DNA of 64,000 nt. Origin: Blautia schinkii DSM 10518. GTDB taxonomy: Bacteria > Bacillota > Clostridia > Lachnospirales > Lachnospiraceae. Below are positions 2,158-10,320 of this stretch, piece after piece. The stretch is taken from NCBI GenBank assembly GCA_000702025.1, contig JNKJ01000007.1, forward strand, positions 124,001 to 188,000. Direction: 5' to 3'. Under the pieces are notes generated by a model that was given only the letters and a program-made list of their open reading frames with translations, ran no database searches and was not told the DNA's origin. The stretch's first letter is position 1, and each line of letters starts with the position of its first letter. Both the position numbers and the translations under genes were made by a program.

Positions 2158-2200
2158 TAGATGAGCGGCGAAATGAAGAGATTATGGGGAAGTTATTTAT

Positions 2201-2488
2201 GGGGGAAAGGGAACCCCGGAAGGGGGTTGAACGGTGAGCAGAAGGAAATTTGGTGCGGGGGCGCTGACGCTGGCCTTGTCAGGCATTGCTCGCTTCCCTT
2301 CAACTAAGTTCTAACTGCGACTAAGCCGCTCACGAAGAGCGTTCGCTGCTAAGTCTCCGTAAGAACTGGATTTTCAGGCGCGCTTCCGCAAAATGCCTGA
2401 CAAGGCCAGTGTCAGCGCCCCCGCACCAAATTTCCTTCTGCTCACCTACCACTACGTTTCCGACCCTTTCGTATGGGCTGTCGTTTTC
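2201..2488 (+). repeat. Palindromic repeat element, copy A
   Basis: A gene-free element of about 290 bp. Its central arms, 2233-2289 and 2391-2446, are complementary over more than 50 bp with about one G-T mismatch. They enclose a core (2289-2390) carrying TGCTCGCTTCCC and TTCAGGCGCGCTTCC. The outer flank (about 2201-2232) and inner flank (2446-2488) both recur, inverted, in copy B. The two copies share the core and flanks, but their arms differ in sequence while each remains self-complementary. Small ORFs here are artefacts of the palindrome. Confidence 0.75.
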
Positions 2489-2655
2489 GCAGGGAGCTTG
2501 TCGATCGCGGTTTAATACGTCGGTTAGGAGCAAGGAATGCGATTGAACTCGGATAAATTTAACTATTTATGACTATATATTACTACATATTACAGGTTAT
2601 ATAGAATTATAAAGGCTTAGCTACTAATTTTTCCGAAGCCAATAAATTGCCGGTA

Positions 2656-3098
2656 AAAACGACAGCTTCTACGAAGGGGTGGGAACGTAGTGGTAGGCTA
2701 GGGGAAGGGGCTTGGGGGCCGGGGCTGGTATTATCCGGGCGGGCTGTTTTGCGGAAGCGCGCCTGAAAATCCAATGCCTACGGAGACTTAGTGTACTGAC
2801 CCACTTATATCTGGCGAAAATCCGCAGGATAATTTTCCATCGGCAAGGCGGCTGAATGAGTCGATGCGGTGGCATCGGCGATTGAAGCCAACGCTGTCCG
2901 ATAGAAAATTAGACAAGGAGTTTCGTCAGATATAAGTGGGCCAGTGCACTAAGAGCGAACGCTCTTCGTGAGCTTCTTAGTCGCAGTTGGCATTTAGTTG
3001 AAGGGAAGCGAGCATCAGCCCGCCCGGATAATATCAGCCCCGGCCCCCAAGTCCCTTCCCCTAGCCGTTCAACACCTTCCCGGGGACCCCCTTCACCC
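2656..3098 (-). repeat. Palindromic repeat element, copy B, with a nested insertion
   Basis: Inverted relative of copy A. Arms 2696-2746 and 3016-3066 pair over 51 bp with only two G-T mismatches. The core is the reverse complement of copy A's core and is split at 2787-2953 by a second hairpin element. The flanks at 2656-2697 and 3067-3098 match copy A's flanks. The spacer between the copies, 2489-2655, is partly AT-rich and shows no gene. Confidence 0.75.
2787..2953. mobile_element. Nested 167-bp MITE-like hairpin insertion
   Basis: This segment interrupts the core of copy B exactly where copy A reads CTAAGTCTCCG without interruption. Its ends, beginning CTTAGTGTACTGACCCACTT and ending in the near-complement, form terminal inverted repeats of about 35 bp. 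The homology continues inward (AATTTTCCATCGG against its inverse), so almost the whole unit folds back on itself. It encodes nothing. The uninterrupted copy next to it serves as a natural empty site. It resembles a non-autonomous element, but no matching transposase lies in the window. Confidence 0.65.
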
Positions 3099-3270
3099 CA
3101 TAATAATGTAATATTTGTAATATTTACAACAATATCCCTTCTACCACCCTTAAGATTCACCCCCATTTCCATATATTTCACCCACAAAATACACGAATAT
3201 TTTAAATTTCTGTTCCAAAAACCCTAAATGTGTGTTATGCTTTAGCTATAATTTTATTACAGGGTGAGTG

Positions 3271-7941: not shown

Positions 7942-10320
7942 ATGACGGAGAAACAGGAACATCTGTTAAAGCTTTTCCGGGAGATTGATGAAATCTGTAA
8001 GAAGCATAACCTGAGGTATGTGATGGCCGGGGGAACCTTGATCGGAGTGCTCAGAAACGAGGGCTTCATTCCCTGGGACGATGATGTGGACATCTATATG
8101 CCAAGGGATGACTGGGATAAATTCGTGGAGCTTTCCAAGACGGAGTTTCCGCCGGACCGAGCCGTACAGTGCGTGGATGTGGATAGGAGCTATACGAACT
8201 CCTTTCCGCGCTATGCGTCCACAGACAGCTGTGCGGTGCATAAGCACCAGGTGATCGGAGAGGACAAGGCAGGGGAGATCATTGATGTGCTGACCCTGGA
8301 CCCCATCCCTGCAGATGATAAGGAGTATGAAAAATACAGGACCCACATGATGATTTATTCTGATCTTGTGAATATTTCTGTTGTTTTCGGCAACCGCTGG
8401 GAAATCCCCGCATCCCTGTATCTCAAATATCTGCTCTCCTATGTATTTCTGGGAAAGGACAGAACCCTGAAAAAACTGGAGAAAATCATGTTTTCTTACA
8501 AAGAGGAGGAATGTGACCGCTACGCCATGCGCTGGGGCGGCTGTCCCTTCCTTTTTGACAAGGATATGATGTTCCCTGTAAAATATATGGATTTCGAGGG
8601 GGAAAAGGTAATGATCCCCCGGCGTACAAACGACTACCTGGTTTGGCATTACGGGGATGAATGGTCTTATATCCCGCCCCACGGCGAGCGGGAATCCCAT
8701 GATGCAATCTGTGTGGACGACATCACCTACAAGGAATTCCGCAGCGATTATATGCCGAAGGTGCATAAGCGCAAAGCACGGTTTAATGCGGCTGTGCGTA
8801 AGTTCTATTACATGGCGACTGCCAAGAGAGCCCACAGGCTGCAGCATGAACGTGACCTGCTTCAGGCAAAAAGTACGGTCATGGACCTCAAGGCACGCAT
8901 CCGTCAGAATGGACGGGATTTGAAGGAAATGGTGGAGGCACATGAGTTTGATACTTTAAGTGAGCTTTTCCTTAATTATTTCCAGGTGCAGTTAAGCGCC
9001 GGGTTTATCGGCAGGGAGGATTTTGCGAATATTTATCCATTTTATCATCCTACACTGCTTGAGGTTGAGGATGAAGTGTTTATGGCAGCTATGATGACTC
9101 TTTTTTATACAGAGAGGATATCTAAGGCTTACCGCATGTTTCAGGTGCGGGAGAAGCTCGACCATGTGACACCGGAGATGAAGAAGGTGATGGCTGATGT
9201 GGTTTTGTTCCGTAAAGCCACCTGCCATTATGAGTTTAAGGAAAAACAGGAAGCAGAGGAAATTTCCCGGGAGCTTCTGGAACGGTATCCGGGTAATCCA
9301 AGCTTTCTTAAATTCCAGTGCCGGTTGGTCATGGACCGCGCGCGTGATGAGGAGAGTGCAAAGGAAGGAGCTTCTGCTCTGACTGAAGGACAATTGGTGA
9401 ATCGCACAACTGAGGGACGCGTGATGAACCGCGCACATGCAAGCATGGAGGAAGCCTGGGAGTTTGTAGAGGAGGCTCTTGCTCTTTTCCCGGAGGACGG
9501 ATATTTCCTTAAATATAAGGCTGACCTTCTGTGGATGCGGGGCAGGCGAATGGATGCGCTGAAGCTCTATGCGGATGCCCGCGAAAAGACGAATAACGGA
9601 ATCGTACAGCTTGAACTTGATAAACTTTTGAGAGATTATAAACGGCAGGCTCTCGACACCTGTAAGAGTCTGATCGACAATAAAATGAAGCAGGAGGCTC
9701 TGGAGCTGATGGAGCTTTGGGCCCGCCTGATGCCTGAGGATGAGGAGGTTCATGAATACCTCTGCCTTGCTAAAGTTGCAGCGGTCCGAACCCAGAGCGC
9801 CCTTGAGGAAGTGGTGGAGGAAATCCGCGAGAAGCTTGACGACTCTGAGGACGGACCGGATAAAAAGGAACGTCCCAAGGAGAACGATATGTACCGGCAG
9901 GCCATGACAAGAGCATGGAAACGCCTGGGGTACCCGGAGGGGCTGGCGCAGCTTCGTACGGAATTGGTTTATACGGATGAGCAGAGTGAGTTGGAATGGC
10001 TTGCCGAGCAGATACGCGCTTTCCAGATAAATAAGGACAAGCGTGCCGAAGTGCTCAAGCTGGTAGGCGATGTGCGCAGGAAGCAGGGCCGTACGGAACA
10101 GGCATTTAAAAGTTACTTAAAGGCATTGAAATATGCAAAAGAGCGAAGCTACGTGAAAACCGAGCTGGCGAGGATTATTCTCACAGATCTGTACCGGGGC
10201 GGAAGAAAGGCTTCTGCGTATGCCATGGGCGGAGACGCATCGGAATTTCTTGACAGCTGGCTGGATAAATATGGCACACTGGAGGATGTTCGGAGCCTTG
10301 TTGAGCTTGTAAGCAGATAG
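7942..10320 (+). CDS. LicD family transferase with long TPR-like C-terminal region
   Basis: A 792-aa protein. The first 270 or so residues are a LicD domain with GGTLIGVLRNEGFIPWDDD at 30-48, giving both the GG and the acidic DDDVD motifs of the nucleotidyltransferase fold. LicD proteins attach phosphocholine or other phospho-substituents to surface glycans. The remaining 500 residues are alpha-helical with TPR-like pairs (for example AFKSYLKALKYAKE near the end), probably a protein-interaction scaffold. It follows the fusion gene by 3 bp and precedes a second LicD-like gene, so the two may act together. The transferred group is unknown. Confidence 0.85.
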   Translation: MTEKQEHLLKLFREIDEICKKHNLRYVMAGGTLIGVLRNEGFIPWDDDVDIYMPRDDWDKFVELSKTEFPPDRAVQCVDVDRSYTNSFPRYASTDSCAVHKHQVIGEDKAGEIIDVLTLDPIPADDKEYEKYRTHMMIYSDLVNISVVFGNRWEIPASLYLKYLLSYVFLGKDRTLKKLEKIMFSYKEEECDRYAMRWGGCPFLFDKDMMFPVKYMDFEGEKVMIPRRTNDYLVWHYGDEWSYIPPHGERESHDAICVDDITYKEFRSDYMPKVHKRKARFNAAVRKFYYMATAKRAHRLQHERDLLQAKSTVMDLKARIRQNGRDLKEMVEAHEFDTLSELFLNYFQVQLSAGFIGREDFANIYPFYHPTLLEVEDEVFMAAMMTLFYTERISKAYRMFQVREKLDHVTPEMKKVMADVVLFRKATCHYEFKEKQEAEEISRELLERYPGNPSFLKFQCRLVMDRARDEESAKEGASALTEGQLVNRTTEGRVMNRAHASMEEAWEFVEEALALFPEDGYFLKYKADLLWMRGRRMDALKLYADAREKTNNGIVQLELDKLLRDYKRQALDTCKSLIDNKMKQEALELMELWARLMPEDEEVHEYLCLAKVAAVRTQSALEEVVEEIREKLDDSEDGPDKKERPKENDMYRQAMTRAWKRLGYPEGLAQLRTELVYTDEQSELEWLAEQIRAFQINKDKRAEVLKLVGDVRRKQGRTEQAFKSYLKALKYAKERSYVKTELARIILTDLYRGGRKASAYAMGGDASEFLDSWLDKYGTLEDVRSLVELVSR

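Follow-up and report, generated by a model that had tools for sequence, protein, structure and literature searches.

Palindromic repeats with complementary arms of free sequence in Blautia schinkii: a probable family of non-autonomous mobile DNA

Introduction

Palindromic or inverted-repeat DNA is a feature of several described systems with which the repeat reported here can be compared. Bacterial MITEs, with which ERIC- and RUP-type repeats are grouped, are one of them; integron attC sites, which carry R-box motifs, are another. A third is made of REPINs. In the sections of Bertels and Rainey (2011, PMC3116915) on which we draw, REPINs are REP doublets that form hairpins, and the capacity to form the hairpin goes together with compensatory changes in a mobile repeat. 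Recognition of attC as folded single-stranded DNA is described in the part of PMC6393395 used here, and the main text of PMC8040213 presents 250 palindromic candidate structured RNAs from human microbiomes.

The repeat found in Blautia schinkii resembles REPINs, as the same sections depict them, in being extragenic, in its many copies, in its inverted pairs, in having a conserved recognition part, and in forming a hairpin with compensatory changes. It differs in the length of its units (about 200–280 nt, against 71–110 bp for a whole REP doublet), in its large structured core, and in the absence of an association with Y1 transposase in the genus. Like bacterial MITEs, the repeat is small, non-coding and dispersed, and has an inverted-repeat architecture; unlike them, its arms lack conserved sequence, each of its ends is itself a full palindrome, and one clean site of presence or absence (locus L188) carries no target duplication. 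With attC, according to the part of the source used, the repeat shares palindromic DNA of variable sequence and conserved structure. However, the repeat occupies single intergenic sites, no cassette array was seen, and no R-box motif was recognised in its core by eye. The candidates of PMC8040213 are likewise palindromic, structured and seen from both strands in microbiome genomes, whereas Blautia is absent from the main text of that paper; on a comparison with the main-text description rather than with the lists of candidates, the repeat family could be one of them.

Literature searches on palindromic repeats, MITEs and REP/RAYT systems in Lachnospiraceae and Blautia, and on the core string, yielded no apparent description, as judged by titles and the opening lines of abstracts. 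Our best reading is that the family is a palindromic repeat that is new, mobile and non-autonomous, with a REPIN-like layout and no Y1 association. As such, it points to a mobilising activity in major gut bacteria.

Results and Discussion

Architecture of the repeat pair

The window, which is the whole stretch of 64,000 nt of Blautia schinkii DSM 10518 that was analysed, contains two palindromic units, A and B, in convergent orientation. Together they span positions 2193–3106, with element limits at about 2193 on the left and about 3106 on the right. The parts of the pair are the following:

2193–2232, plus strand: left terminal segment, forming an outer stem with the right terminal segment (inverted repeat I4 and predicted fold)
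2233–2287, plus strand: left arm of unit A, complementary to 2392–2446 at 54 of 55 positions
2288–2391, plus strand: conserved structured core of unit A (AACTGCGACTAAG...CTAAGTCTCCGTA), about 104 nt, defined by conservation and consensus structure
2392–2446, plus strand: right arm of unit A, pairing with 2233–2287
2447–2695, no strand assigned: A–B spacer, with a central stem between about 2447–2487 and 2656–2695 (inverted repeats I6 and I8 and predicted fold)
2696–2746, minus strand: arm of the inverted unit B that adjoins the spacer, complementary to 3016–3066 at 49 of 51 positions, with two G.T
2747–3015, minus strand: core of unit B, made of inverted copies of the A core and split by an insert
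2787–2953, no strand assigned: separate MITE-like insert of 167 bp within the B core, with 37-nt inverted ends (I7, 89%)
3016–3066, minus strand: outer arm of unit B, pairing with 2696–2746
3067–3106, minus strand: right terminal segment of the pair (I4 and predicted fold)

The terminal segments lie in inverted repeat I4 (2193–2262/3037–3106, 73%), and ends like CCCCGGAA..GAACGG recur in other copies of the repeat. The core of unit A is conserved both in its own genome and in other species.

The original prediction, made from the letters of the window, described an inverted palindromic pair with like cores and unlike arms, and such a pair is what we find. The A core and the inverted B core are 93% alike over 45 nt (I5, 2349–2393/2747–2791) and 92% alike over 61 nt (I2, 2287–2347/2954–3014). 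Identity between the A arm and the B arm is 0.60, which falls within the range obtained when the B arm was shuffled 500 times (mean 0.56, maximum 0.72); hence, the two arms resemble each other no more than shuffled sequence would. Self-complementarity of the arms within each copy was also borne out: the only mismatch among the 55 aligned positions of the A arms is a G.T, and so are both mismatches among the 51 aligned positions of the B arms.

Unit A alone has a predicted folding energy of −168.6 kcal/mol (z −13.9), with 0 of 200 shuffles as good. For the 914-nt pair treated as one strand, the figure is −541 kcal/mol (z −22.2), with 0 of 20 shuffles as good, and the predicted fold is a four-way junction made of the outer stem, hairpin A, the central stem and hairpin B.

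Copy number, pairing and spread of the family

In the genome of B. schinkii, at least 40 strong matches to unit A were detected (40 of 178 first-look candidates were scored). The original prediction had been staked on the existence of more than two copies and on covariation of the arms; it stands on both, as the arms covary in the own genome and in relatives. Thirty own-genome loci were returned, one of which (L030) repeats another (L010) while three are cut by contig ends, so that 26 distinct loci remain. At 17 of these 26 untruncated loci a second core is found within 1.5 kb, and all 17 pairs are convergent. The other 9 have no visible partner, which may be too decayed to see. When a covariance model of the core was applied to 87 other sources, 9 of 10 close pairs were convergent and 1 was direct, a count in which a palindrome matched on both of its strands (L058, L075, L087, L119 and L125) is not taken as a pair. 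On the REPIN trait of short units that replicate as inverted pairs, the evidence points both ways: 17/17 own pairs and 9/10 others are convergent, but single units are common and units are long.

Five contigs of the own assembly (G000; contigs C1, C2, C24, C33 and C34) start at a repeat copy or at most 7 bases from one. The repeat thus probably breaks the assembly, and its copies may be undercounted.

Within the genus, the core was matched in 10 of 59 other genomes. A core pattern retrieved at least 86 stretches from a collection of named genomes, and among the matches listed are Dorea, Blautia, Eubacterium, Lachnotalea, Oliverpabstia intestinalis and further Lachnospiraceae, Clostridia, Clostridiales and Eubacteriales. 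An earlier scan of the same collection with an outer-core pattern gave no matches because the outer core differs between species. Under stricter filters, the covariance model of the core detected the own genome and, weakly, one genome of the same family among 196 genomes of the class. A search with unit A against plasmids and phages gave no match. In one contig of the viral collection (L129), positions 9088–9154 match the inner core weakly and in part (23.7 bits), perhaps by chance or as a distant relative.

Covariation in arms and core

Complete units from other genomes formed a set of 83, which omits L129 and 7 matches situated less than 160 nt from an end of their stretch. The arms are self-complementary in 82 of the 83, with scores of 20–64 against a shuffled maximum of 14; the exception is L116.

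Covariation was examined in two alignments. The first, A1, holds 59 of the 71 non-redundant units from other genomes; the 12 outside it belong to another subtype, have longer inner loops or are disrupted (L045, L059, L069, L077 twice, L095, L097, L107, L108, L114, L116 and L127). RNAalifold predicted 31 pairs in A1, and 29 were counted, omitting those between columns 41–83 and 61–66, in which 12 and 11 of the 59 sequences, respectively, fail to pair. Of the 1711 cells in these 29 pairs, 96.9% are paired; two-sided changes number 269 and one-sided changes 9. With slid partners, pairing is 29–45%. None of 500 shuffles reached four of the five measures; the fifth, further pair types, was reached by 332 of the 500.

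The second alignment, A3, takes in 37 units of the own genome, each with full flanks and at least 100 nt of matching core; it excludes duplicates, truncated copies and those B copies that the insert interrupts. Two-sided changes are found in 54 of its 74 pairs (435 two-sided cells); in the outer arm helix, 28 of 30 pairs show them. In A3, 96.8% of cells pair, compared with 38–45% when partners are slid, and 0 of 500 shuffles reached any of the five measures. Because shuffles keep relatedness, slid-partner controls are the better guide. The core also holds conserved unpaired bases.

Presence, absence and concerted change in sister genomes

Two sister genomes, G072 (31 matches) and G073 (24 matches), were compared, with 150 candidates scored in each. 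Their orthologous copies are mostly about 95% identical. We traced five of the copies for which no orthologue was obvious (L192 and L198 are among the others). Locus L188 carries 204 bp, made of both arms and the core, where L232 has nothing, and no target is duplicated. Locus L202 carries 252 bp, including the outer 15-bp complementary ends, where L239 has 4 bp. In L209/L220, L201/L228 and L189/L242, the last known from alignment coordinates only, the core is wholly or partly missing and the arms remain. The evidence on target duplication comes from two sites at which the direction of the indel is unpolarised: none at L188/L232, and 252 versus 4 bp at L202/L239. We infer gain rather than loss at these indels, although the clean ones at L188 and L202 could be losses.

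At L188 and L202 both arms lie within the indel, so that the arms are part of the unit. One candidate explanation of arm diversity, namely that the arms are host flank captured at insertion, is ruled out at these two loci for the same reason.

Concerted change in both arms was seen between the sister genomes at L209/L220. To count such changes, we used 16 of the 19 orthologous pairs of a coarser set, omitting L200/L199, L210/L215 and L211/L219, whose units are rearranged or shorter. Among 456 paired arm positions, 428 are unchanged, 3 show concerted changes and 11 are mismatched in one genome; a further 13 mismatches are shared, and 1 position is mismatched differently in both genomes. By our own arithmetic, independent mutation would be expected to produce about 0.02 concerted changes, compared with the 3 observed. 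The coarser count, which covered all 19 pairs with fold-derived pairs and wider flanks, gave 73 one-sided, 4 concerted, 59 gapped and 6 other changes. The ratio of 73 to 4 indicates that resident arms mostly decay, a point against the DNA-level reading proposed below. Among G072 paralogues whose cores are 90% alike or more, most changes are concerted (68 versus 16). Divergence of the arms grows gradually with divergence of the core, which argues against wholesale replacement of the arms at each move.

The original prediction had traced the co-ordinated arm change either to selection on a fold, as RNA or as DNA, or to arm conversion during mobility. The concerted changes between orthologous copies lead us to favour folding at the DNA level or arm conversion; selection on an RNA fold fares worse, for reasons given below.

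A DNA-level interpretation

We consider it probable that the family is a non-autonomous mobile DNA repeat, present in the window in its paired convergent form, and that the complementarity of its arms is renewed at the DNA level. Each unit would be a long DNA hairpin with the conserved, partly unpaired core at its tip and, further down, arms that are complementary but free in sequence. A putative trans-acting enzyme would recognise the folded core, most simply on single-stranded DNA at the replication fork, and the conserved unpaired bases would serve as the recognition surface. The same enzyme would move a unit, or an inverted pair, into intergenic DNA. Because the arms need only pair, their sequence drifts. 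Most likely, the polymerase would switch template within the imperfect palindrome and copy one arm onto the other; selection for the hairpin in active copies may also help to keep complementarity. That template switching in imperfect palindromes can maintain stems is stated in the part of PMC8794818 on which we rely. The family is large and easily sampled, and sister genomes are available; upkeep of the stem by selection versus template switching is thus directly testable.

A bolder version, which we regard as doubtful, would place the repeat in a distinct class of mobile DNA. The element would travel as a folded single strand whose conserved shaped core is recognised by a trans-acting enzyme and whose arms are re-copied from each other. 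Such re-copying, as in a hairpin telomere, would take place during movement or replication and would provide each copy with private complementary arms.

Wobble pairs and strand bias

An alternative to the mobile DNA repeat is a family of structured non-coding RNAs that was multiplied by duplication and in which selection on the RNA fold keeps the arms paired. Conserved unpaired nucleotides, a multi-helix core with strong covariation, and the very stable predicted fold of unit A and of the whole pair would all suit an RNA. However, dozens of intergenic copies per genome are at odds with it, and a search of Rfam 15 with the window and 7 loci gave 0 matches at gathering score.

Selection on one RNA strand should leave more G.U than A.C. 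The control, an alignment of FMN riboswitches from the same genus (30 sequences; a small sample with 7 variable pairs), gave 9 G.U and 0 A.C. In the arms of the repeat, isolated mismatches, defined as those with three matches flanking each side, amount to 26 G.T, 27 A.C and 25 transversions alongside 2903 paired positions in other genomes, and to 14, 14 and 9, respectively, alongside 2069 paired positions in the own genome, once 193 and 59 edge positions are set aside. Hence, the statement in the original prediction that only G-T mismatches interrupt the arms holds for the window pair (one in A, two in B) and fails for the family. A looser count on local alignments gave 143 G.T and 99 A.C in other genomes and 57 and 36 in the own genome, to which ragged ends added 374 and 119 other mismatches, respectively; this G.T excess vanishes when the count is restricted to isolated mismatches. 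The 54 variable pairs of A3 show no wobble preference either (29 G.U versus 24 A.C).

The A1 core is different. On the strand as oriented, G.U numbers 20 against 49 A.C in 22 variable pairs, and 9 against 31 in 29 pairs (columns 9–119). An A.C excess of this kind amounts to a wobble excess on the opposite strand (31 G.U versus 9 A.C). Such a lean is not predicted by a neutral DNA process, and may leave room for an RNA fold of the core on the opposite strand; in this respect, the RNA part of the original prediction is not closed.

Neighbouring open reading frames, called mechanically at a minimum of 90 aa, flank 73 of the 83 units on both sides, with orientations ++ 24, −− 21, convergent 20 and divergent 8. 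Both orientations are thus about equally represented, and the lack of bias makes a cis-acting RNA unlikely. Absence of wobble preference in the arms and absence of strand bias do not favour RNA folding, and altogether we consider an RNA family unlikely. Covariation of paired bases commonly counts as proof that an RNA is functional. The repeat shows strong covariation without arm wobble or strand bias, and warns against naming such covarying motifs RNAs.

Neighbouring genes and transposases

No recurrent gene beside the 83 units was recognised among clusters of open reading frames; two large clusters, of 16 and 12 loci, are scattered in their distance from the units. Movement as REPIN/BIME-type repeats by a REP-associated (Y1, HUH) transposase would account for the recurrence of inverted pairs, for the compensatory changes in hairpin arms and for the lack of target duplication at L188; inverted doublets and compensatory changes are in fact stated for REPINs in the sections of PMC3116915 cited above. 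Distribution of the Y1_Tnp domain (PF01797) speaks against it, as does the greater length of the units. Among the other genomes, PF01797 is present in 7 of the 10 in which the core was matched and in 30 of the 49 in which it was not; it has two partial matches in the own genome, and no match in G014 and G059, each with 14 scored core matches. A link of the repeat to Y1 transposase, which shows no association with the core, was therefore dropped, and we view this explanation as quite unlikely. Two points count against our own reading of a mobile repeat: transposition was not observed in the sequence comparison of sister genomes, nor was an enzyme found among neighbouring open reading frames or by PF01797.

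Very unlikely, in our opinion, is a non-autonomous MITE of a DDE transposon with the long inverted pair as terminal repeats, which would fit an inverted pair with recurrent ends and a 167-bp insert accompanying B at 8 places, the window included, but sits less easily with the absence of target duplication at the sole clean site without filler (L188), with the frequency of units without visible partner (9/26 own loci, unless decay has hidden the partner), with arm sequences that are not conserved as transposase-binding ends would be, and with the lack of a recognised linked recurrent gene.

Variant units and accompanying repeats

Minor observations on individual units can be summarised as follows. 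The insert found at 2787–2953 occurs in B at the 8 own-genome places mentioned above; in L009 and L026 its position is the same as in the window. Three copies of part of its interior also occur in G013, which gave no core match in the search of the genus. Next to the unit at L188 there is a second presence/absence segment of 209 bp (1724–1932). Positions 1834–1942 of that locus match more than 20 places in G073, and hence represent another dispersed repeat family. Unit ends or arms are duplicated in tandem in L185, L187, L190 and L203, and in L007 and L012 of the own genome, as if the ends had slipped during copying. In L065, L114, L108 and L127 the innermost hairpin is about 20 nt longer, and its stem is unrelated in sequence but well paired.
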